DNA of 64,000 nt from Saccoglossus kowalevskii. Lineage: Eukaryota > Hemichordata > Enteropneusta > Harrimaniidae. Every line of letters begins with the position of its first letter. Positions within the stretch are counted from its first letter, which is position 1. Where the stretch lies: positions 223,205 to 287,204 of the forward strand of contig NW_003123420.1 of the NCBI RefSeq assembly GCF_000003605.2. Reading direction: 5' to 3'. The position numbers and the translations under genes are program-made. The notes under the pieces are model-generated. The model did not search any database and had not been told where the DNA came from. It worked only from the letters and a program-made list of their open reading frames with translations. Shown here in pieces: positions 15,651 to 63,937 of the stretch.

Positions 15651-15757
15651 TTAATCGATGTATAAAGCTTCAAGACGTTCTTGCGTGCATACTGCGACGC
15701 CTTTAACCGATGCTTGCTTCGCAATTCCAAAAATAATTCGCTGTATATAAAACAACG

Positions 15758-16792
15758 ATGGCTGATAATATGAATAACACTGCTGCTGTCGGACAAGCCT
15801 CGCACATCGCGACCGTTATTCACTGCACCATACTTTCAACATTACTCGTCTTGATAATTGCTGGTAATGGTTTGATGATCTACGCCATTCTATCGACCTC
15901 TAGACTACGAATTACAACGAACTATTTCATAGTTAGCTTGGCCATCAGCGACATGCTTGTCGGACTGGTTGTAATTCCGATTAACTTTGCTTTCCCGACA
16001 GCTTTATTGAAAGGCTACACCACTTGTTTACAGGTGGCTTGTTTCACAGTCGTCGTGTGCACAAGCTCTATAACCAACATTGTCGCTGTCACGATTGATC
16101 GCTACCTGGCTATCACCTCGCCATTGAAATATCACGCAATAATGACATCCAGGCGTGCAATTGTGACTATATCATTAGTATGGGTGTATGCTTTCACCAT
16201 TGGTTTCCTCCCAGTCATGGGATGGCGAGAGAAGGCCAGTACCTGTCAGCGAGGTGAAGTTTACGCACCGGGCTATGCTGTCTTTCTCTTCATAACCGGA
16301 CTCGTATTCCCGGTCGCAATTTCCACAGTGCTTTACTGCCGAATACTGAAGGAAGCAAATCGACAGACGATGCGAATACAACAGATTGAATGTAGGGTTT
16401 CCCAGGTGATCACGGCAAATGAACATAACCATAACAGGCAAGAAATATGCCCATGTGAAGTTCAAGAAAATGGCAGTAACCATGATAAACACAATCCCCA
16501 CAGCGAACATTGCAATTTTAACAGGAAGGCATTTCGTACAGTGATGTATATCTTAATGTATTTTGAGTTGTCCTGGATACCCTTGTTTGTCACTTTATTA
16601 ATCGATGCTTTCGTTTCCCCTCTCGTAATTCACCTAGAGGTACGGACTTTCACCAGTTTACTGGCGCTTGGCAACTCCGTAATGGATCCAATAATCTACG
16701 GTTATTTCAACCGAGATCTGAGGAATCGATTGAAAGAGATTGTATCAAAAATGTGTCGGTGTTTTCACCGCGCAGACTTAATGCAAACTTAA
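15758..16792 (+). CDS. class A (rhodopsin-type) GPCR, single exon, intact
   Basis: A 344-residue seven-helix receptor of the plasma membrane. Hallmarks: N-glycosylation sequon at residues 6-8; Asn37 in TM1 (AGNG); LAISD with Asp65 in TM2; Cys90 at the top of TM3 with Cys163 as its probable disulfide partner; DRY at 114-116; Trp142 in TM4; Pro185 and Tyr193 in TM5; SWIP (Trp273, Pro275) in TM6; DPIIY at 310-314 in TM7; Cys333 and Cys335 as possible palmitoylation sites. Loop 3 (about 205-258) is long and His/Asn-rich. The TM4 end and loop 2 (PVMGW) recall adenosine receptors. Thr97 stands at position 3.32, so it lacks the Asp of amine receptors, and Leu280 replaces the adenosine-binding Asn at 6.55. 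The ligand is therefore unknown. The start is the first ATG of the frame. The 3' end is duplicated as a fragment at 24.04 kb. Confidence 0.93.
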   Translation: MADNMNNTAAVGQASHIATVIHCTILSTLLVLIIAGNGLMIYAILSTSRLRITTNYFIVSLAISDMLVGLVVIPINFAFPTALLKGYTTCLQVACFTVVVCTSSITNIVAVTIDRYLAITSPLKYHAIMTSRRAIVTISLVWVYAFTIGFLPVMGWREKASTCQRGEVYAPGYAVFLFITGLVFPVAISTVLYCRILKEANRQTMRIQQIECRVSQVITANEHNHNRQEICPCEVQENGSNHDKHNPHSEHCNFNRKAFRTVMYILMYFELSWIPLFVTLLIDAFVSPLVIHLEVRTFTSLLALGNSVMDPIIYGYFNRDLRNRLKEIVSKMCRCFHRADLMQT

Positions 16793-39550: not shown

Positions 39551-41192
39551 AACTGTGAAAGCTGCCAAAAAGTCGTATTTTCGTGACAGACTTTGCACCT
39601 CCGCTGGCAATAATAATAAAACATGGCAGGCCATTAATGAAATAATGAATGGAAACATGTGCAAAGCTGGGACCCCTCAAAAATTAAAATCAACCACCAA
39701 ACCAGATGAATTTGTTACAAACAGTAAGGATATTGCACATTTGTTCAATTCTTATTTTGTTAACATTAGCCCAAAGCTTGCTTCGGAGATTACCTGTAAC
39801 ACCAATTTTAATGACTACCTTGGCTACAGACAATCAGAGTCATTTTTCTTTCGCCCTGTCTATGCACACGATGTCTTAAATGAAATTGACAAATTTGACA
39901 TTCGTAAATCCGTTGGTTATGACGGTATTCACCCAAAACTTGTGAAAGTGGCTGCTGAATATATTGCCGAACCAATCGCCTATATTATAAATTGTTCCTT
40001 GTCGAAAGGCGTTGATCACAGTATTTTGCTAGCTAAACTACAACAATATGGGATTAGAGGGTCAACTTTGAACTGGTTTAAAACTTTTTTGGACGGTCGG
40101 CAACAATATGTCAGTACTAAAAACAATGATTCTGACTGTGAAACTATTTCCACAGGGGTACCACAAGGGTCAATCCTAGGCCCTCTTCTTTTTTTAGTTT
40201 ATATTAATGACATTTCTCGATCATCCCCCCTTTTTTCATTCAGACTATTTGCTGATGACACCAGTCTATTTTATTCCGTAAAAGACCGTTCTGTAAACCT
40301 TCACACACTTAATATTGAATTAAATAAAGTTGCTACCTGGTGTAAATCAAATAAATTAACTATAAACATTGACAAAACAAATTTCATGATTTTTCAGACA
40401 GCTCAAAGAAAAACAACTATTGAGGGCGTATTATCAATTGATGATTTGTCATTAAGAATGGTGTCGTCAGCTGTTTATTTAGGTGTCACGCTTGACTCAA
40501 CACTTTGTTGGAGACCCCATATCGATAACATTGTTAAAAAAATCAGTAAAACAATTGGGATAATCTCATACTTGAGGCATTATTTACCAAAATCCATTAT
40601 GATATTACTTTACAACTCGTTGATTCTCCCACACATTGCTTATTGTATAGAAATATGGGGACACACTTTTAGCACATATATTGATCCAATTTTTAAATTA
40701 CAAAAAAAGTTTGTCAGATTAATTTCTTTCTCTCATTTTCGAGCAAGTACCACACCACTTTTCCTGCAACTTGGCATTCTTGATGTGTATAAATTATGTA
40801 AGTACAATACATGTTTATTTGCATACGATTTGAAAAATGGCCGCCATGCACACTCTCTGGATCATTACGCCTTATCAATATCACATCCATACCATACACG
40901 ATCAGTAACCTCTGAGAAACTTGCCACACCACAAATTAATTTAAGTTCAACTAAGAAAAGTCTGACATTTTCTCTTGTAAAACATTGGAATGAGCTCCCA
41001 ACTTCGTTAAAAACATTAACTTTACGAAACTCGTTCAAAACGGCATTAAAAAAATATCTTTTAAAGGGGAACCGCTCAATCCCATGGATTGCACCAAAGA
41101 ATCATGGGACACTATTGTTTATGTTGTTTACAATGTTAATCTATCTTTTGTTATCCATTGTTATTTTAATCCAGAAAGTAAATTTGTTGTAA
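39551..41192 (+). pseudogene. LINE ORF2 fragment with internal in-frame RT deletion
   Basis: The frame is open from the gap to a TAA at 41190-41192 (about 546 codons, no true start visible). It contains the pre-RT region, RT motif 1 (KSVGYDGIHPKLVK, near 39910), VPQGSILGPLLFLVYINDI (motif B, near 40160), FADDTSLF (motif C, 40248-40271), LGVTLDS and the C-terminal thumb and tail (AYCIEIWGH, FVRLISF, WNELPTSLK). Near 40010 the text jumps from INCSLSKG to VDHSILLAKLQQYGI. Related RTs have roughly a hundred more residues there, including the motif A Asp of the catalytic triad (F-DL-KAFD). The reading frame is preserved. Without motif A the enzyme cannot polymerise. Confidence 0.88.
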
Positions 41193-46259: not shown

Positions 46260-46357
46260 CCGTATAATGTGAATCCATCTGATGCAGAGTTGATACGAAG
46301 CGTCAAATACTGACAATTCAGAAAGAAAGTGGATCTATGCTACACTGAATATTCGAG

Positions 46358-46645
46358 ATGGTACGTGCCTATAGTACTTGTACCTACGGTGCGTTGGTTG
46401 TTTGTTTCCTGATGCACGCGTTTCAAAGCACTGGAGAAATGAACAAAACAAGTGACCCAAACCCGACCGTTACCGAATTGTTGATTTCCCCTGCATCGTC
46501 TAACGAGGGCCACCGAACTGAATTTGCAACCGGTTTGCCTAGGTCCGTTTACGTCATTATTGTCTTGGGATTGCTGGTTTTGGGCGCCATGGCGCTTCTT
46601 GCCTGCCGTCTTTTTATCCGAAGCGAAGCCATAAGAAGAACGTGA
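46358..46645 (+). CDS. small single-exon type I membrane protein (unknown family)
   Basis: A 95-residue ORF starts at ATG 46358, with a TGA in frame 12 bases upstream, so the start is fixed. Residues about 1-27 form a signal peptide (hydrophobic YGALVVCFLMHAF, then QSTGE as a likely cleavage site). About 28-65 is a short, hydrophilic, Ser/Thr/Pro-rich ectodomain with a sequon (NKT at about residue 29). About 67-88 is a transmembrane helix (VYVIIVLGLLVLGAMALLAC). The tail is short and basic (RLFIRSEAIRRT). GC is near 50 per cent against an AT-rich background. The antisense frame is also open but lacks such organisation. Family and function are unknown; a small signalling or accessory subunit is only a guess. 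Confidence 0.55.
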   Translation: MVRAYSTCTYGALVVCFLMHAFQSTGEMNKTSDPNPTVTELLISPASSNEGHRTEFATGLPRSVYVIIVLGLLVLGAMALLACRLFIRSEAIRRT

Positions 46646-50161: not shown

Positions 50162-51008
50162 TAGCTCCGCTGTTAGCAATGCACATTTTAATTAAAGAAC
50201 TGAAGACATCATTAGAAAATGAACAATATGTATAGTATCAAAGCAATCGAACTTACAGTTTTTAACAAGAAGTCGAAAATATCACTTTCTATCAAAAATG
50301 ACCAAAATATTCACCAAAATTAGAGAATTGAAGATATCATCACGAAATGAACAAATCTGAGAAAGGTTTACATGTAGTATCTATATGTGTAATATGAAAG
50401 CAATTGAACTTTTGGTTTTTAACAAGAAGTCGAAAATATCACTTTTTACCAAAAATTACAAAAATATTCACCAAAATTAGAGAATTGAAGATATCATCAC
50501 GAAATGAAAAAATCTGAGAGAGGTCTACATGTAGCACCTATATATGTAATATCAAAGCAATCGGACTATTGGTTTTTTACAAGAAGTCGAAAATATCACT
50601 TTTTACCAAAATGACAAAAATATTCACCAAAATTAGAGAATTAAAGATATCATTACAAAATGAACAAATCTGAGAGAGGTCCACATGTAATACCTATATA
50701 TGTAATATCAAAGCAATTGCACTTGCATTTTTTAACAAGAAGTCGAAAATATCACTTTTTACCAAAAATGACAAAAATATTCACCAAAATTAGAGAATTG
50801 AAGATATCAACATGAAATAAATAAACCTAAGAGAGGTCTACCCAAGGTACATATACACCAAGTATCAAAGCATTCAGGCTTGTAGTTTTCAAGAAGAAGT
50901 CGAAAAAGTAAAACATTGACACGGACGACGGACGACGGACGACGACGGACGACGACGGACAATCACTCATATGATAAGCTCCGCTCGACAAAGTCGACAG
51001 CGGAGCTA
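50162..51008. mobile_element. non-autonomous TIR element with internal 157-bp repeats
   Basis: Bounded by TAGCTCCGCTGT (50162-50173) and its exact reverse complement ACAGCGGAGCTA (50997-51008), so TA may be the target duplication as in Tc1/mariner-like MITEs. Inside are four and a fraction tandem 157-bp units (phase marker AGTCGAAAAT or AGTCGAAAAA at 50271, 50428, 50585, 50741 and 50898). A GACGGACGAC run follows (50927-50960), then a terminal hairpin (AGCTCCGCT...AGCGGAGCT, 50977-51007). No transposase is encoded. The 847-bp length comes mostly from the tandem array. Confidence 0.8.
50200..50905 (+). repeat. 157-bp tandem repeat array (about 4.5 units)
   Basis: Units share ACAAGAAGTCGAAAATATCA, AAAATATTCACCAAAATTAG, AGAATTGAAGATATCAT and a CTACATGTAG-type segment. 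The spacing is 157, 157, 156 and 157 bp. Divergence between units is modest, so expansion is more recent than most repeats here. Confidence 0.95.
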
Positions 51009-51735: not shown

Positions 51736-54700
51736 ATGCGCCGAGGACGAAGATTCGGACCGGGACCCGGGCCCGGGCCGGGACCGAGACCAGGACCAGG
51801 ACCTGTAAGTATATGACCATGTTTTGTATTGAAAGACTATTATGTAAAAAAGTAAAAAAAAACAAAAAAAAACGTGTGCTATTCATGCACGTAAATTGTA
51901 TACCCGAGTTAAAAATACCCTGAAACGATTGACAAACGATCGACATTCACAACAACAACAACAAACAAACTTGGTCATATCAACGAGAGCACGATAAGAA
52001 ATCGATAAGTATTATACAAAATAAGAATTCTAAAACGCATTACGTATACAATTAATAAATGTGCAGACAGTTGAGCACTTGTAGGTCGTCACATCTCTTT
52101 GCCAATGATCCGTGTTTCAAATGTCCGCTTCAATTGAAATGATGATTTGTTTGCCATGGATTGCCGGAGCGAGTTAAATATGGGGTCAAGTAACTCCGTC
52201 TCGGAGTCGGGTATGTATAGGCCACCCCTGATGCGACCACAGATAACAACGAGACAGAAATGAACTACTCAATAATTGACAGCAACAACCATGCCAAACG
52301 AACTAGGGTGTGGCAGCAAACACGTGTTGCACATTAATTACATGGCGTGTTTGCTTAGCCTCGGTGCATGATACATCATGACATAGATAAGTAATCCCAA
52401 ATAGGCTATGTTCCGCTTCGGTCGAGATCTCGCGAGGTCGTAAAATTTTCCTAGATAGAATTATACACAATTCGACACTTCACATCTATTTATGTTTATA
52501 TACAATAGATCACCGGCTCAAATGTATACATAACTGCAGCGTAATTTGAAAATAGAAATGATGTTACAAAATAAAGATTTCTTCTAATTAACAAAAACAA
52601 TGTTAATACTTCTACATGCTGTCAGCTTTACACGCATTTTAACTGATTTCATTTTCCGCATGTTTTTTATAGAAAGGTCGATATATATTTATTATATATA
52701 AATTGACGAATTTTAATTATTTTTTGGCTAAGTAGTCTAAGACGGACAGAGCACGTTTGTTTGCAGTATGCCTGTTATAGCTATATCATATAGTGCATTT
52801 AAACTGACACTGCAGTGTACGGATAAGAACATGTTCCAGGAAGAACAGTTATGTACGCCGGTTAGCTATTTAGGATATAATACTCAGATATATAACAAGT
52901 GTTCGTATATGTTTCACCATGTTGTTTTTCCACGGTAACTGTACACTACCACCCTCCTAAGCGTTTGTAAATGCCGTGACAACACCTTTTCTTGCTATGT
53001 TCCACGAAGTCGACGTCTCTTGGCGCGCGACTGTACGCCCGGGTATGCATCAGTGAGCATTTTTAATAATTCACACCGAAAAAGTGCGGCCCAAAAATTA
53101 TATATACCAGTCTGCTGCCTTCATCTTGCCAGTGGTTCATGTGACGTCATTGCCGGATGTGATGTGTCTTCCGTTTCCATGGCGACTCTTAAAATGATGA
53201 GTTCTATTGAACCAACAGCGGTTAAGCATCAATAATATATGACCGTGACAGGCACGGTTCAATTTAAAAAGAAAAAAAAGGACATGTATTCTCTATTGCC
53301 TCCAGCGAAACGTTCAGAAAACTAGGAAATGTGTAATCGTCACGCCGATTTATTCTCACCAGCCTCTAACTCCAACTTTGTTTTCACTGCAGTCGACTAC
53401 TCAACCGTAAAGTAAGGTGAAACGTTTGGCTTTCAATCTGATTAAACTATTATTTATGTATTGAATCAGTTAGATATCCACCGCAGCTGGGGTGCCTTCT
53501 TCAACTATGAGTTGAATAATGATTCGCTTGGAGGGATGGATTGTAACCAAATTAGAATTAGTATTTATTTATTAGTTTACTTTTTCTCACGTTTTTTTTT
53601 TTTTTTTTAATTTTCATTTATAGTTACGAGTGCGCACAACCCACAACTGATCAATCGGCTGCCCATGCGTTGTCTGATTGGGTTGACAGTACTAGTATGC
53701 GTTTCGAAAACATGTAGTTCTGTGCACTGCGAGATCCCGCGTTATGCGTGAAATCGAACGTAAAAACGGGACAAACAAAGGTCATAGCGTCGTAGTGGCG
53801 ACAAACATCGCGTGGGATTCGACAAACGCGAAAGTATTTTGAGGTATATTTCTACGCGTAATAATGTGCTGAACACATTTGATGATTGTCAATTTCGATG
53901 AAGTAATGGTATTCAAACGCAATATTCTCCTATCAAAGATTGGCCTTCGAATGTGAGCTACGAATTAATGAAATTCGAGTTCAAAATCAAATCGTTCGAT
54001 TATTGGGCAGACGTTCTTTCACGCAACTCGCGAGATCTCGCAGTTTACTGGAAAATCACCTATTAGTTTATTTTATATGCATATCTGACACTTGTCTTCT
54101 TATGTGTGTCATATAGAGACGTGGTCCTAGGCACCCAGTGGCAACGGGGCTCGTGGTGGGAGCAGCTGCAGGGGCAGTCGCATCGAGTTCGAAGAAGAGG
54201 TCTGAGCCCGAGACAACGACCATAATAACCACAGTCCCTGCCCCAGAACAACCACCGCCACCACAACCACAGCCGACAACAACCACCAATGTTATAATTA
54301 TAAAGGTGCGTTCAAGTTTGTACTAATACCTAGAAATACTAATTTACTTTAATGCAAAGACATTTTGTAACCCCGTTGAAGGATTGCACTATTTTAGAAA
54401 GCGATTTCTCATGACAAAACACCACAGTGGTGTTGTATACGCAAAATGACTGAATCCTTAAAGGTGCTTTTTTTATACATTGAAAGAGCTAGAATATAGT
54501 GTATCAGTTTTTGAGAATAACTTTGTATGATTTATAGTCAAACAATTATGTTTTAGTAGCGCTTGGCCCGGACGCGTACATTTTAAGCACATGCGCATTA
54601 GAGTTTTGAGTATTGCTTCGAGTATTACTAGGGAAAAAATCAAGGATTTTATTTTACGATATTTTTAATTAAGATGCATTTTTAAATAATATTGGAAGAC

Positions 54701-55604
54701 CACAAGGTTCTCAAATTTTCTTGAAAGCATGTGATGAGTGTAAATATCATGGAATGCGTTTCAAAACTTATTAATTTAAAAAAAAAAATACAAACATATA
54801 TTCATATATTCATATATATATACATGTACTAAAGTCTCTGCGATACATCCCCCGTATCTAAGCCGACGTATAGGAACTGAATGATTATGTCGCCAACTTT
54901 GTTTACTCTGGATACTTTAAACGTGTTTTTATCATAATTTTAGGAAAAAAAGAGCGATGAAAGCAGCAGTAGTAGCAGCAGTGATGATGAAGGTAATAAC
55001 ATTTCGCGCTGCACATATTCGGTGTTTTTTCGACTCGCTTCTTTGAAAATTGGGTTTCTAGAATTCCCTCAAACCCATGATTATACTGCATAACTCAGCA
55101 TATTCAATGTTTTACATTACAGACCACAAGAAGGATAAAACAACAAAGGCAACAGCAGCTGCTGCAACAAACCCACCACCACCGCAACAACAACCTGTTG
55201 GCGCACCGCCGGCGGGATACTATTATCCGCCACCACCAAATCAACCATACGCGGGATACCAACAACCACCCCAGCAAGGTTATGGTCAGCCATATTATCC
55301 GTATGGTTATCCTCCCCCTCCACAACAACCAGGGGCACCCCCTCAGCAACAACCTGGTGTATACCCACCACCACAACCCGGGGTGCCTCCGCCAGGAACA
55401 GGAAGCGTTACAACCGCAAATCAACAGCAGCCTCAACCCAGTTACCCAGCGTATCCCCAGTACCCTTATCAGCATCCACAGGGACAATACCCACCACCAC
55501 CAGCGGCTCCACCAGGGTACCAGTATCAACCACCGCCACCACAGACGAACACCACATCGTCAGTGGCAACAGCATACCCAATTTCATCAGAAAGACGGTC
55601 GTAA
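51736..55604 (+). CDS. four-exon glycine-zipper / Pro-rich protein, paralogue A
   Basis: Exons: 51736-51804, 54117-54305, 54944-54992, 55123-55604; all introns are GT-AG, phases 0, 0, 1. The predicted product has 262 residues. Residues 1-23 are basic then GP-repeats (MRRGRRFGPGPGP). Residues 24-86 include RRGPRHPVATGLVVGAAAGA, with a GxxxGxxxG zipper at Gly34, Gly38 and Gly42, then Pro/Thr-rich sequence. Residues 87-103 are an acidic Ser run (SSSSSSSDDED). Residues 104-262 are Pro/Gln/Tyr-rich with YYYPPPP, YGQPYYPYGYPPPP and a PPGY (PPxY, 55509-55520). The start is chosen by paralogy with gene B. Glycine zippers usually pack in membranes and PPxY motifs bind WW domains; a membrane-linked adaptor is inferred. 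I do not recognise the family. Intron 1 is 2.3 kb and contains block D copy 2. Confidence 0.8.
52163..52392 (+). repeat. duplicated block D, copy 2 (in intron 1 of paralogue A)
   Basis: Second copy of the 49358-49567 block, same orientation, with a 20-base extra stretch (GGCCACCCCTGATGCGACCA) after the GTCGGGTATGT part. Confidence 0.85.
52423..52436. promoter_or_regulatory. TCTCGCGAG motif (and inverted copy at 54027)
   Basis: CGAGATCTCGCGAG here is the exact reverse complement of CTCGCGAGATCTCG at 54027-54040, both in intron 1 of paralogue A. TCTCGCGAGA is a known promoter motif in vertebrates; its role in this organism is unknown. Confidence 0.35.
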
Positions 55605-55751
55605 ATTATTATCGAATTTCAGGTTATCACGTTTATAATAACAGATCTATCATTATCATTAATATTTTTCATGGGACTGTCGCTATGTACTCATACTACG
55701 CGTTTCTATGCGACCTCAATGAAATTAATATGTACAACCAGAAAAAAATGC

Positions 55752-55757
55752 AATAAA
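55752..55757 (+). terminator. probable poly(A) signal of paralogue A
   Basis: AATAAA 148 bp after the stop codon, in an AT-rich 3' flank. Confidence 0.55.
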
Positions 55758-58018
55758 CTATGATTAATGTATTATTTCTGTCACAATCATTCTCACTACT
55801 AAATTAAAAGGCATTATTTTTTCCATATTTTAATAAAATACTGAGCCAACATAACCGTCATTAAAATGTTATTGTTACGCATAACAATATTACTTGCATT
55901 TATGCCATGTTATATGACCCATCACTTCGTGTGTCCATTTAATATCATAAACATAATTTGGGTTATATATTAAATAGATTAAAAAGGCCGCTCGTGGCGT
56001 TTTAACCTCCAGACATATCAGCAAGATGAGATTTAAAATATTAGCGTTATCGTCACTGATCTGAAAATAGATGATATTCCCGGAACGACAAATTTGAAAA
56101 AGCATTTTATATTTATATGACGTAAAAACATCATTATATGTGAATTATAATTTCTGCTGTATGTGTAATTGTTGGTGTAGTAGTCGTTTAGTAATTATGT
56201 TACATTGGTATATATAAGATTGAAGTCCGTGCATATTAATTACCTATTTGATATAATAAATTAGCTCATACTGCGCTTTGAAATTAACCACTAACTTGGC
56301 TACTATAGGGCTGTATAGTCCGTAAATATTAATTACCCAGTTTGCATAATAGTTAGCCAATCGTAGACGTCGTCATTGATGTCTGGCGAATCATTTAACA
56401 TATTTACAAATCTAATTTGGTACACTAACAATGCTGTTGCTCTGGTATAAACCGTGTCCCACTGATGTCACTGGTATTTTTCAATCACCTATATTTTCTG
56501 ATAACACCATTATGTTAAAGAAAATATCAATCTTGAAATTCATAAGAAAAAAAACGAAGAAATTCAAAAGATTACTGGTTGGTAGTATAACAGTGATATA
56601 AATATATGTGTAGAGAATGTAAAAGAATTTGACTATAAGGCGAATGATTGGTGCATTTCATACAAGACGGACCAACACCCATGTGTTTCGCCCCAACATG
56701 CAACAATTATGCTATTACACCCCAAGTGGGAGATGTTGAAGTTACAGATCAATTCCAACGGTATATATGTTCAGTGTAGTTACACCCATATATTCTCCAA
56801 CGTTAATTCTCATAAACTACACTGTAAACGCATAGTTTTGGTGGGTATTGTATCATATTTGTCATTGAGATATAAACATAATGACAATGAAGTACATTTT
56901 GCTTGTCGATGTCTATTTTTGTCTTGTGTGGATTTAGTTCTAAAGAAAACGAAGCTATATAGGCTATCATGTTGCTTGAATATTTTGGTAAAACAATGTT
57001 TTGTTCTTCTTGAAAGTCATCAATCCAATTGCTTTTTATAGTTTGTATGTAGGCATCCTAAGTTAGTTCCTATACTTTGTGTGACAATACCTTCAAATGA
57101 GAACGTGGACATCACTGCACAGGCTCAAATAAAACCTATTTTGTTGTCAAAGTTGAGAACTCAAACTTTGCTTGTCAAAAGTATTATATATTATTTCAGA
57201 ACATCCTGAACCTGATGTTGCCCCTGGGGATATCCTTGTTTTTGTGTAGATGTATAAACTATACCATCACTGCCTTTAACACCAATACCAGCTTTGACGT
57301 TTATTTATGAATTTGATAATCCACAGTACAAGTTATCTAATATAATTTTGCCAGTAATGATATTTAAAAAAAGGATATTTTCTATGGTATCCCCAATTTT
57401 TAATTAGAAAAGTTATAAAAGTTGAACTGAAAGTACAATAATTTAAATATTGATAATATTCCTTTACATGGCTGATTTACAGTGATTACAACTTTCCCAA
57501 TTTTATTTGTACTGTATTTCTTGTCACATTGGGCGAACAATACCTAGGCATGCATTGGTGCAGTCATACATATAGTTGGATTTTCTTGTTTATTGGACCT
57601 GAATAATGTATGGTTATCTCGTTGATATGCATGGATACCTTAAAGCTTAAATAGTCCCAATGCTGTGTAAGAACACCGGAAGCAATTGTCAGATTCCAAG
57701 CTACCAGTTCTTGGTTCTTGGCTGAAATGAACATTAATTAAATCATTTCTCAAAGTAATTCTCATGACCCAAGTTGTCACGAACCTTTGAATTTCGCATG
57801 CATTACAATGTATATATACAATTGTTATACCACTACACACAGCCATTAAGTATACACTTGTTTGAAAAAAAGAATACATAGACATAATGATATAAATAAA
57901 GTTTCAAATAAATTGTACTTCTTGAGAATAAAACTGTAAAATAAGGAAGGTCTCGTATGAACCTACCATTATAATGACGGTTTATTAATTTGCACTAACA
58001 TAGCTGTAAGTTGGTCCA
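55758..58018. other. intergenic stretch between the two paralogues
   Basis: Contains a direct repeat at 56226-56355. From 56500 to 57250 there is a patch that might be decayed retroelement sequence (SDNTIM and similar), but the frame cannot be followed. No exon supported. Confidence 0.35.
56226..56355 (+). repeat. direct repeat pair, 95 bp apart
   Basis: AGTCCGTGCATATTAATTAC near 56225 and AGTCCGTAAATATTAATTAC near 56318 open related stretches that continue with C.ATTTG.ATA and TTAGC. Confidence 0.75.
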
Positions 58019-58019
58019 T

Positions 58020-58278
58020 AGCTCTTCTTGTGTCGGTCTTTAGTCTTTGTGATGGTATTTAACCATTTCGGTTACATTTGGTGCCATTAAATTTGCTAAT
58101 TTCAGACATTAGGATTTCTAGGACAAAGAAGAACCATGGCTCCTTCCATAGACTTGCCTAACACAACGCAAATACGCAAATGACGCAAATAAAAGTCTGG
58201 AAATAACAAATTTAATGACACGAAATGTATCAGAAATTTCTAAAATATCACCACAAAGACCGACACAAGAAGAGATAT
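58020..58278. mobile_element. foldback MITE-like element, about 90-bp arms
   Basis: The outer 20 bp, CTCTTCTTGTGTCGGTCTTT (58022), and AAAGACCGACACAAGAAGAG at the right end are exact inverted copies. Pairing continues inward imperfectly (GGTGCCATTAAATTTGCTAA against AACAAATTTAATGACACGAA). The central unpaired part is about 75 bases. No coding content. The structure is that of a MITE able to form a long hairpin. Confidence 0.85.
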
Positions 58279-59198
58279 GAACCCACGGCTAGTACTAGCA
58301 GTGATTCGCTGATTTTTATTAAACGTTTGAGTTAATAATATTTTAGAATAATATGAAACTAAATCTTCAAACCCAACTGTATGGGGGCGTTCGGGTCTTA
58401 TCTTTCGGCCCCTAATGTTTACGCCAGATTCAGGAAAAGGTTTCGTGTGGGATGTAAAGTGGAATCTTGCAATTAAGTATAAGACTAACTCAAAATTGGA
58501 AAACTTGGACCCGAAGACTTGTGCTTAGCTTGCACGCAACATATACTGCCTACTCTGGGGTAAATATGCCAAGCAGAAATATACGCGAACGTGAAGGTCG
58601 GGCAGTGCTATATTTGAAAACATATATGGCGCCGACTCTACGAGTGAAAGTGCCATGACGTAGCCAAGCAGTGATGATGTCATGGTCACGAGAGACATTA
58701 TTGAAGCTCACGTGTTTTGAAAGAAAAAAAAAATGGTTGGGTGACGTTTAAGGAAGTCAGAAACAAGCGATAGTAAGAATTATTGGAACAGTACAAATGC
58801 GACATTGGAAGGCTTGGTCAGGTCAATGTAGGTAACATGAAATAGAGACAGACGTCTCGAAGAAGGACTAGTACGACACCTGCAAGAACGAGCTGAGGCG
58901 TTGACGGATGAAATCACATAGTAAAAACAGAGAACGTTAAATTGCAACTGTATAGCCGTGAGTCTGAGTACAATTTACGTTTCAGGGGAATCTAAAGGAG
59001 AATATTGCGTTAAAATCGTAAATGGTCTGATTCGGGGAAAATTCGAAATGCCGCTCAAGATGAAATCGCCCACCACCTGGGATGGGAATCAAAGCTCAGG
59101 CACTAATGATTTTTTTTCCCGCGACCAGCAATAATGTTACGTTGTTTCGAGCGCATTGGACAGTTTTAAAAGACGATAGTTTGTGTAAGCTTGTAACA

Positions 59199-59339
59199 AT
59201 GGCCGGCCGTCTGCACGGAAGATTAAAAGAAAAAAGTGTCGTTCGAGAAATCATGAAAAGGGCCTATAAAAAGAAACCATCGTTTAGAAAAGGGAACTTG
59301 TACCTTATTGGTGAAATATACAGATCTCCACATCTGTGA
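59199..59339 (+). CDS. hypothetical 46-residue basic ORF
   Basis: Starts in a very good context (ACAATGGCC) and reads MAGRLHGRLKEKSVVREIMK, then basic RAYKKKPSFRKGN and a hydrophobic end (LYLIGEIY) before TGA. No family is recognised and no splice partner is clear. It could be a small mitochondrial-type peptide, a first exon or chance. Confidence 0.2.
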   Translation: MAGRLHGRLKEKSVVREIMKRAYKKKPSFRKGNLYLIGEIYRSPHL

Positions 59340-59425
59340 TTGAGATTGTGAGTAGGATATAGGTTCATTATAATTTCAAGCGGGAGTGTCGCCACCTACG
59401 CATGCGTCAGGTGGCCATAGCGTGT

Positions 59426-59548
59426 CATTGTTTTCAAACAAGCGTCTACACATAAGCCTTTGCGCTCTTAGCGTGTGTTGTTATCATCGCTTGGGACTCA
59501 ATTCCCGCGCGTGCGCAGGTGACGCCCCCCCCCCCGTTCCCGCTTTAA
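59426..59548 (-). repeat. dispersed repeat R2, copy 2 (inverted)
   Basis: Reverse complement of 5642-5753. Landmarks: AAACAAGCGTCTAC, AGCGTGTGTTGTTATCATCG, GGGACTCAATTCCCGCGCGT. It has a run of 11 C absent from copy 1. Confidence 0.8.
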
Positions 59549-60748
59549 CCATTAGCTTGGCGGGTATTAGTTTAGCACTATATAATCAAAATACATTCAT
59601 AAGCAGTTCTACGTGTATTTTATCAAAACTACCATGTATTTCAATTTGTTGTTGTAAAGCAAGTTGTTCAATTCTTAAATTTGCGGAATATATCATGTGG
59701 AGGGAGAAGCCAACAATCAAGTAACAAATGGGCTTGACGTTCTCCGTTTTTACTAATCCCGTTGGAAGGAGTCACTAGCAAGAACAACGGGTGTTTCATA
59801 TTGGGTGGCTGAGGGGTACTTTTTTCCATGATTAAACTGGTTGACCGTAAATTATTACTATATAATACGTGTCAAATTAAATATACTAATCACTTTGTTA
59901 TATAACATGGTGTTTTTGTTTCTTTAAAATTTGGATCGAGGTGTAGAGGTGTTTTCATCAAAAGCTGCATATCCGTATGTAATTGAATAGAACAATAAAC
60001 AAGGCTTGCCGAAAGATGTTCTCTCCCAAGCTGATTAACGCGCAGTTGAGGTTTGGTTTCACTGAAGTTCTGTATGAAATTACTATGTTAGCTGCAGGTA
60101 GTATGGACGCCTATAACCGCTGACAAACACTAGTTATACAAACATTGTGCACTATTGTGAATAAGGCGCAGTGCTTATCGGGGAGAAATATTATTATTAC
60201 TTTACACTCACCGTAACCGTCATTAGTGACTACGCTGAGTGGTCGCTTCGCTTAGGCGTAAGAAACTAGATTTACTTAAAAATAAAATTAATAAACAATA
60301 TTATACCAAGCATAACTCGGTATCCAAATGATGAAATCATTTTTAGAGGTGGCATGTTCTCATTGCGATTTTGTATGAAGACGGACAAACAAGAGTTGCC
60401 TCTTCCCTGCTGATATACAGTTTGTATGATCAACTTGGTTTTTTAGAACGGAGAACAGGTTTTGTTTCTTTCACACAGGGCCTTATTGATCTTGACATAC
60501 ACTTCACTGAGTGCGTTGCCCCGTGACGTTTGTGTTGTCTCTGGATCATGTGACAATCAAAGTTATACATTAACCACAATCAAATCTATTTCTGTGTGTA
60601 CATTGAACGGAGTATCAGGCCAGTAATTTGTCGATGTTATGCATTAACTGTTACATTTGAAGGACGGTGACGAGTGTTTATAGGACGCAGCAGGCAGACA
60701 TTTACTGTACACTCATATCGCTAAGTTTGGTGGTTTTAAGACAGCATC

Positions 60749-63700
60749 ATGTTCCGTGGCCCAAGAAGGGTGAGTATACATTATTTCCACAATGTTTCAG
60801 AGTTCGTGAAGTATGTTGATGACATATTTTTTTTTAAATTAGCTGATCTCTTATTAACCGTACCGCCGTCACTACTGACATGCTCATCTCTGAATCGAGA
60901 TGACACGGAATTTAAACTTGATTACGCAACAAAACACGTCCTATTTAGTCTGTTTTGGGAATAAACGAATCACCCGACACACGCATATACATACATATAT
61001 ATATATAAATAGGTCATAATAATTTACTGTCAATAATTTACCATAATCAGCATGTAATTATCTATCATTATAGCGATTCGCCGTCCACAGGGTATATTTG
61101 ATAACAAATAAATGACGTCACACTTGTACCTTTCAGGTCCTCGTACGGAGTCTAGACAATGTGAATTGGTTCAGTTTAATATTGACATTTTGTTTAAAAG
61201 AATCATTAACTTCCACTGCTTCAGTATACTCTGTTTGATGTCGTCATGTTTGCATGCCATACACGGAATAACCGCGTGTCGTAAAAAGCACCGGCTTGTC
61301 CACCCAGTAGAGGAAATCAGCACGCCCTCTGTAGTCAATAATCTCTTGTTATTTTGTTACGAATATAGCGACCGTGGTGCCTTTGTTGACTTCAAACACC
61401 TTAACTTCCTGATATTGTAAAACAAATGGAAACAGCACATATAATTCAGTGGTTTGGTTGGTTCAATTTTAAAATCTTATGTCACACCAAGTAATAGAAC
61501 CGGCATTCTGACTAGTCAATCAAGTTATCGTGGCTGACCTATTTGATAACAATCGAAATAAAAACATGAGAATACATACAGAAATATGCATATACAAACA
61601 TTTCTTTTAGCAGTGTGGAAGGACTGCAATCCTAACCACACTCCGTTGCATCTTTCGTGCTATATTTTGTTCATAATTATATTCAAATTCACCAGATCTC
61701 GCTTGTGTGTGTTGTGTTTTATTGTATCCTGTTGCGTATTGTGAAGTAGTGTTGCGTTGCGGCATTTTGTGTTGTATTTCACTTTGTCGAGCTGCGCTGT
61801 ATTGCATTGTGTTGTTTTGTGTTAAATGTCATTGTATTTTGCTGTGTTGTGTTGCCAAGTGCTGTCTTGTCACGTCTTTTATAGTGGCGTTGGGTTGAGT
61901 ATTGTAGTGTGTTTCGTTTCGTTGTATGCTGTATTGTGTTGCGTAATGTTGTATCACGTTGCGTTGCGTTGAGTTGTGTTGCGTTGTGCTGTATAATGTA
62001 GTGGAATGTTGCGTTGAGTTGTGTTGCGTTGTGTTGTGTAGTGTAATGTAGTGGAGTGTTGCGTTGCGTTGAGTTGTATTGTGTTGCGTTGCGTTGCTTT
62101 GCATTTTGTAGTGTATAGTTGTTGTGTGCCGTTGCGTTGTGTGGTGCTGCGTTGCGGTGCGTAATGTTGCGTTGTGTTGTGGTGTTTTCAACACTACGAT
62201 AAATACTTTCCGTTTTCGACATTGTGAAGTTCTTTCGTTATTTGGGAGAAAAAAAAACCCTGATTTTGACAAGATAATTCAGAAATTAATAATAAGAATA
62301 ATTCATAACGTATGTATTCCATACAAGAATATTACAGAAACAAAATTTGCTATATTCTCTATATTTTTGCCTTTCATTTGTCTTGAATTATGACTGTTCA
62401 ACAACTTATGAACAATAACTTTAATGAACATGATATACTTGGTAAAATTACTGTATTTTTCTGCATAAAAAGGGAAGAATTTCACAATGTCGAAAACGGA
62501 AAAACTTTATCGCAATGGTTTTGTGTGGTGTTGTATTATTTGCGATATTTTCTTACCATATAGACTGATTAGATATCTGACTTTTTTAACAGGGTCCAAT
62601 GCGAGGTCCCATGCGTGGTCCAATGCGTGGTCCAATGCGTCGCCGTCCATTGGCAACGGCAGTAGTGGTCGGAGCTGCCGCAGGTGCAGTTTCTCGGTCT
62701 GGAAAATCGTCTTCAAGCAAAACCACCGTCGTCCAACATAGTCAACCGCAACCAACTTATTACTATGTCCAACAGCCGCCGCCAAATCAGCAGCATTATC
62801 CCACACCGGTCCCTCAACAGTATCAGCCACATGCGCAGCCACCACCATATCAGCCGCCGCAAGCACAGCAACCACCACCACTACCTCAATCAGCGACAAC
62901 CAACGTTTACAATGTTACTATACAGGTATCAACAGTATGTTCAAGCGCCCTCTAGAGACCAACATCAATATTTGGTTCGAACCGAGGGAAAAGATATTTG
63001 TTCGTTTGAACCGCATTGTAGTCTTTCGTCGCTTGAGGGCGCTACTTGAAGGATCGTTGTATGCTTAACTATATTATTATTACTACTTGTTCTCGGTACG
63101 ATACATACATCGATATGACTGACATATTAAGATCGGCAATCCTGAATTTGTAAAATTTGAATGAATGTCTAACTAGTTCATCGCATAAAGGGGAGTTATA
63201 TAATAATAAACATCGTTATGATGTTTGTCATCGAGATACCATCTTATTTCGAGATTCCACAGAAACTTTTTGTTATGAAAAGTAATATTAGTATATGATC
63301 ACGCAATGAACATAAATAGTATAAAAACAAATGCACCTGTTGACGTATAAGTCCTCGCTGGTGAATTCTGGATATTCATATTTTTTTTAGTAGATCTTAA
63401 GACTTTAACATATAGTATAATTGTACTGGCGAGTTAATTTCGTAACCTGATTGATCGGGATTGGATTTATTGCCCAGATCATGTGATCACTACTTACTAT
63501 TGCTATTTTACTCCACAGGAGAAAGACTCGAAAGGTAGGTTACTGTTAGGTTACGCGTTTTAAAGCTTCACAATATGCCATCCCACCGTTCGGTAAAAGT
63601 GTACAAGTGCGAAGTTCGTGACATATTTAAACTGTAAATGTAAATAATTAATGTCAATGTGTTTTAATTTGAAGGAAAAACAGAAAAAGACGTAGATCTG

Positions 63701-63937
63701 ATTAATTTCGGTGACGGCGCCACATCGAACCAACCATCTGCACCTGCAGCTGCATCCTCATCGTCCTTGCCGTACCCGGCACAACATCCCGTGGGTATGC
63801 CGGTGCCTCAACCATACGGATACGCAACACCACAGCAGGCCGGGGATTTGCTGCGTAATCCACATCCAGGCGGAGCACAGCCATCACACAATGTTACGCC
63901 AAACCAACAAACTCAAACCCCGCCTTATCCCATATAA
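60749..63937 (+). CDS. four-exon glycine-zipper / Pro-rich protein, paralogue B
   Basis: Exons: 60749-60769, 62593-62925, 63519-63534 (16-nt microexon), 63675-63937; GT-AG introns with phases 0, 0, 1, identical to paralogue A. The predicted product has 210 residues. It begins MFRGPRR, then four GPMR repeats (8-23), then RRRPLATAVVVGAAAGAVSR with an AxxxGxxxG zipper at Ala30, Gly34 and Gly38. A Ser/Lys stretch follows, then a Gln/Pro/Tyr-rich region with PPPY (62839-62850). Exon 3 encodes EKDSK and the first base of a Gly codon. Exon 4 contains DLINFGD, PSAP (63734-63745) and a Pro/Gln-rich end stopping at TAA 63935-63937. PPxY and PSAP can recruit NEDD4-type ligases and TSG101; this is motif-level inference. 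Intron 1 carries a GTTGY minisatellite and a MITE. Confidence 0.78.
61695..62190. repeat. degenerate (GTTGY)n minisatellite in intron 1 of paralogue B
   Basis: About 500 bases dominated by GTTGT, GTTGC and related pentamers with frequent variation. On the opposite strand it gives meaningless open frames rich in Asn, Thr and Gln. It abuts the left arm of the MITE at 62194. Confidence 0.95.
62194..62515. mobile_element. MITE-like element with 41-bp terminal inverted repeats
   Basis: The left arm 62194-62234 (CGATAAATACTTTCCGTTTT onward) and right arm 62475-62515 (ending GGAAAAACTTTATCG) are inverted copies sharing CCGTTTTCGACATTGTGAA. About 240 AT-rich bases lie between them, without an ORF of note. 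It sits in intron 1, 77 bp before exon 2. Confidence 0.85.
62941..63050. repeat. small inverted repeat in intron 2 of paralogue B
   Basis: TCAAGCGCCCTC (62941) and GAGGGCGCTACTTGA (63035) are inverted copies with a small indel. They enclose about 80 bases that include TTCGAACC palindromes. It begins only 15 bp after the exon 2 donor. Confidence 0.65.

Follow-up and report, generated by a model that had tools for sequence, protein, structure and literature searches.

Two adjacent predicted genes, G1 (51736-55604) and G2 (60749-63937), lie in the analysed window, which is the whole stretch of 64,000 nucleotides. On the evidence of their sequences, G1 and G2 are protein-coding paralogues that arose by an old local duplication, and they appear to fit no catalogued family among those searched. 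The encoded proteins may be soluble or loosely membrane-attached disordered scaffolds, a function that is suggested by amino acid composition alone and to which a probability of about one in three is given.

Structure of the two genes

Both genes are located on the same strand and consist of four exons each, and the predicted products comprise 262 (G1) and 210 (G2) amino acids. The intron phases are 0, 0 and 1 in both. The initial annotation had described this arrangement, which was confirmed from the sequence, and the intron lengths were found to pair one by one as well (2312, 638 and 130 bp in G1; 1823, 593 and 140 bp in G2). The exon boundaries were set by hand at GT and AG, with the stop codon included in the last exons, and the GT-AG borders at 6 of 6 introns are therefore partly the result of construction. 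The open reading frame across all joined exons of both genes and the matching phases and intron lengths are independent of the choice of boundaries. The donors of the six introns fitted MAG/GTRAGT at 6 to 8 of 9 positions, while the acceptors contained 6 to 9 pyrimidines per 12. The G+C content was 0.43-0.72 in the exons compared with 0.31-0.38 in the introns. Judged by these features, G1 and G2 look real as genes and look like a gene pair of an ordinary kind.

Exon 1 of G1 (51736..51804, +) starts with ATG, encodes the basic Gly/Pro-rich N-terminus MRRGRRF(GP)n and ends at the donor GTAAGT in phase 0. Exon 2 (54117..54305, +) follows an AG acceptor and encodes the core RHPVATGLVVGAAAGAV, a Pro/Thr-rich stretch and TTTTNVIIIK up to a GTGCGT donor (phase 0). 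Exon 3 (54944..54992, +), with an AG acceptor and a GTAATA donor (phase 1), encodes the acidic serine stretch EKKSDES(S)nDDE, and exon 4 (55123..55604, +) encodes the Pro/Gln/Tyr-rich tail, in which the frame is open from the AG acceptor to the stop codon TAA. A candidate polyadenylation signal of G1, AATAAA, is located 148 bases past the stop (55752..55757, +) and is a consensus match only. A 157-bp tandem repeat of 3.9 copies occupies positions 50226-50841 of the window, about 0.9 kb upstream of G1.

In G2, exon 1 (60749..60769, +) encodes MFRGPRR from the ATG to a GTGAGT donor in phase 0. Exon 2 (62593..62925, +), bordered by an AG acceptor and a GTATCA donor (phase 0), encodes GPMR repeats, the core RRPLATAVVVGAAAGAV, a Pro/Gln/Tyr-rich stretch and ATTNVYNVTIQ, and it contains a 12-bp tandem repeat at 62593-62640. 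The short exon 3 (63519..63534, +) encodes EKDSK between an AG acceptor and a GTAGGT donor (phase 1). Exon 4 (63675..63937, +) encodes a Pro/Gln/Ala/Ser-rich tail with an open frame from the AG acceptor to TAA, and its 3' end is repeated beyond a scaffold gap. Repeat tracts of the GTTGT type are present in intron 1 of G2 (window 61903-62185).

Conserved core, paralogy and copy number

G1 and G2 have the core RxPxATxxVVGAAAGAV in common, and the shared motif of the initial annotation, RRxx..P[VL]AT..VVGAAAGAV, was found in both. The core, which was picked for being conserved, scored 72 compared with 23 for shuffled sequences, and its score was reached by 0 of 10,000 shuffles. The local alignment score was 196 for the full-length proteins (shuffled mean 99, sd 12.5) and 107 for exon 2 (shuffled 39.5), and neither value was reached by any of 1000 shuffles. 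The match at the junction of exons 2 and 3 (TTNV..I../EKxS) was weaker, and 67 of 10,000 shuffles reached its score. When exon 2 of G1 was used as a tblastn query against the window and the 52 kb that follow it, exon 2 of G2 was matched at E = 1.3e-9; this value is optimistic because the low-complexity and composition corrections were off. A position matrix made from both cores scored 92.5 and 90.5 on its own exons, which is circular, and its best other match scored 20.0 in 633,798 frame positions.

The G1 and G2 regions were also compared by blastn with low-complexity masking, which left 44 nt of the core (80%, E 7e-5) as the sole match below E 0.01. As only this part of the gene regions aligns, the duplication was not recent. 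The earlier description of the zipper core as the best conserved part, with N-termini and tails that have diverged, was supported. The 17 codons of the core, a small stretch that was chosen for its conservation, differ by 9 synonymous and 5 non-synonymous changes (dS 1.0, dN 0.16), and on this selected sample the core looks constrained.

Copy number was assessed in the 572 Mb assembly, which consists of 4830 pieces and in which the window occupies C1608:223205-287204, on a scaffold of 339 kb. Whole-assembly protein searches with the exon 2 pieces returned the loci of G1 and G2 only. With exon 2 of G2 as query G1 was matched at E = 0.0036, and with exon 2 of G1 as query G2 was not returned even at E 10. 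Because the G1 query missed G2, the sensitivity of these searches is low and diverged copies elsewhere could escape. A third copy was not found in 314 of the 339 kb of the scaffold, about 23% of it N; the stretches comprised 20 upstream (200,000 letters, 64,317 of them N) and six downstream (6,898 N in all). An apparent third tandem copy past the window (L002:1824-2066) was rejected, because its 243 nt are identical to the end of G2 and lie across a gap of 1323 N from it. The two copies of this sequence, L002:258-500 and L002:1824-2066, flank the gap and most likely stem from overlapping contigs that the assembly failed to merge. Two upstream frames with VVGGGS were also dismissed as relatives, since the likeness goes no further.

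Several other features were observed on the scaffold. Two frames for rhodopsin-type G protein-coupled receptors (PF00001, E 8e-49 and 3e-54), at 15737-16789 (+) of the window and L010:1674-2762 (+), are about 24 kb apart and form a second neighbouring pair on the scaffold of G1 and G2. The best PDB sequence matches of the frame inside the window were 5-HT1A receptors (E 1.5e-37). A reverse transcriptase frame of a LINE-like element (PF00078, E 9.7e-17) adjoins a run of N at 39555-41189 (+). A frame of 98 amino acids at 46349-46642 (+), which by eye resembles a small protein with a signal peptide and a single transmembrane segment, gave no Pfam match at E 0.001, and an open frame of 418 amino acids downstream on the scaffold (L007:1093-2346, -) gave none at E 0.01.

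Mitochondrial DNA was present on C4830 (L030); one of its strands encodes COX1 and the other ND1 and COX2. Its frames fit TGA as Trp, ATA as Ile and AAA as Lys, and a tRNA-Lys with the anticodon TTT is present. ND1 uses AAA for all 8 of its Lys codons, and about five of these fall at positions where Lys is presumably conserved. The ATA codons of COX1 occur in 9 of 9 cases at sites that are presumably Ile in most homologues, a tally that covers COX1 alone; ND1 contains another 15 cases and COX2 another 10. This combination is presumably that of enteropneust hemichordates and speaks against echinoderms, in which AAA encodes Asn, and the mitochondrial code thus looks hemichordate-like.

Comparison with known families

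In Pfam, neither full protein was matched at E values up to 1, nor either exon 2 piece at values up to 10, and no PDB sequence matched full-length G1 to E 1. The NCBIfam matches of the exon 2 pieces remained under the cut-offs. MTB12 (E 0.0012) reached 18.9 bits compared with a cut-off of 125, LppK, SiiEA, formate_TAT and GltJ were far under theirs, and all were taken as chance, as was mS119, a PDB match of the core profile at E 1.5. These results are in keeping with the earlier view of an unrecognised family. A collection of bacterial and archaeal genomes was scanned with two peptide patterns, a search that could reveal only relatives bearing one of the two; the 523 pattern matches included no relative at E 1e-3, and a bacterial origin of G1 and G2 is accordingly unsupported. 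No described glycine-zipper or proline-rich animal family was among the matches listed from the open-licence literature.

Three named systems were considered for their likeness to G1 and G2. CHCHD2 and CHCHD10 presumably have a comparable build, in which a basic, Pro-rich N-terminus is followed by a glycine zipper, but G1 and G2 lack the twin CX9C CHCH domain (Pfam) and contain 0 Cys. The composition of the tails is similar to what we take to be the Pro/Tyr/Gln-rich disordered regions of annexin A7/A11 and LITAF. Composition by itself is a convergent trait, and in contrast to these proteins no annexin or LITAF domain was found in G1 or G2 (Pfam). A resemblance is also presumed to SHOCT-containing proteins (PF09851) with an N-terminus of the RRPL..VVG type, and includes the basic start, the short Gly/Val/Ala stretch and the Pro/Gln/Tyr linker. 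Unlike these proteins, neither G1 nor G2 has a C-terminal SHOCT domain (Pfam, full proteins, to E 1). SHOCT membership had been a lead (PMC3581485) and gained no support from the Pfam search.

Possible functions of the encoded proteins

Both proteins begin with a basic N-terminus rich in Gly, Pro and Arg, continue with a single short apolar segment of Gly, Ala and Val that is conserved, and end in a long tail of Pro, Gln and Tyr. The region before the core has 30 amino acids with 8 R/K in G1 and 26 with 9 R/K in G2, and D/E are absent from both. The N-terminal repeats are GP in G1 and GPMR in G2, and past the core 48% of the residues of G1 and 42% of those of G2 are Pro, Gln or Tyr; repeats and tails thus correspond to the initial annotation. 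Cys and Trp are absent from G1 and G2. As judged by composition, the proteins are probably disordered. An AlphaFold2 model of exon 2 of G2, with exon 2 of G1 as sole companion, reached a mean pLDDT of 55.4 and a pTM of 0.14 and was too poor to judge, and DSSP made no assignment on it, which is uninformative for or against a helix.

Two further readings, secreted proteins and membrane adaptors, follow close behind that of disordered scaffolds. It is possible, if doubtful, that the products are secreted structural or mucus-type proteins. The basic N-terminus would then be the long n-region of a signal peptide that includes AVVVGAAAGAV, and the mature extracellular product would be the Pro/Gln/Tyr tail. 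The n-region is basic and acid-free, the apolar stretch has about 15 residues, and AVA followed by SS in G1 fits the -3/-1 rule for signal peptide cleavage. The weak NCBIfam matches of the exon 2 pieces also include bacterial exported or Tat-like proteins, although these are likely chance. However, with 26-30 residues the n-regions would be unusually extended, and they are proline-rich; the core is without the usual leucines and is the best conserved part, which is odd for a signal peptide. G2 has two N-x-S/T sites, but the counts are at shuffle level. A mitochondrial location in the manner of CHCHD2/CHCHD10, with a basic presequence before the glycine zipper, is very improbable. The basic, acid-free N-terminus does precede a Gly/Ala/Val stretch, but the CHCH domain and cysteine are both missing, and no amphipathic presequence helix would arise from Gly/Pro repeats. 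That the genes are non-functional, as chance open frames or decaying copies, is hardly credible: the tails are of low complexity, but exons, phases and intron lengths correspond in two copies and the change in the core is mostly synonymous.

The initial annotation had proposed membrane-associated adaptors, in which the Gly/Ala zipper would insert in or pack on the membrane and the tail would recruit WW, SH3 or similar domains. This is unlikely, although GxxxG and small-xxx-small spacing is found within the core (GLVVGAAAG and AVVVGAAAG) and positive residues flank it on both sides. GxxxG occurs 8 times in G1 (reached by 0 of 500 shuffles) and 5 times in G2 (1 of 500), but chiefly in the N-terminal repeats, which hold 6 of the 8 copies in G1 and 4 of the 5 in G2, and not in the core. 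The apolar stretch of about 15 residues is short for a transmembrane helix, and hydropathy is weak at 17-19 residues. The best 19-residue Kyte-Doolittle windows of 1.34 and 1.15 are below the usual transmembrane range, and the summed insertion values (a flat sum) are unfavourable at +6.4 and +8.1. Membrane association thus gained no positive support; the best 15-residue windows, 1.97 and 1.94, leave room for a short or shallow insertion. The proposed WW-domain ligand PPxY occurs once per protein, which is chance level (shuffle means 1.21 in G1 and 0.37 in G2). A single PSAP, the only P[ST]AP, is found in G2 and was reached by 46 of 500 shuffles, and G1 has none.

The disordered scaffold is favoured since the proteins show no known domain and neither the transmembrane nor the WW-ligand reading found support. 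Gene structure, paralogy, constraint on the core, composition and the weakly hydrophobic 19-residue windows are in line with it, as is PPPPQ in G1 (4 copies, reached by 1 of 500 shuffles), although 12 motifs were examined for each protein. Against it, the enrichment of PPPPQ is confined to G1, with 0 copies in G2, and the 15-residue windows are not low. Self-association of such a scaffold would be the role of the apolar core, which might become helical on meeting a partner, and the multivalent proline/tyrosine tail might promote condensation or bind domains that read poly-proline. Differences between the two copies in their N-termini and tails could tune the choice of partners.

The G1/G2 pair alone settles no open question. 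It is conceivable, but a long shot, that G1 and G2 represent a new animal family in which the 17-residue Arg-Pro-Gly/Ala core is a portable self-assembly module and fast-evolving flanks give lineage-specific scaffolds or secreted materials. If confirmed, the pair would be a clean case of a young or fast-diverging family that kept one short motif while its surroundings drifted, and the core would give a precise query for related animals.
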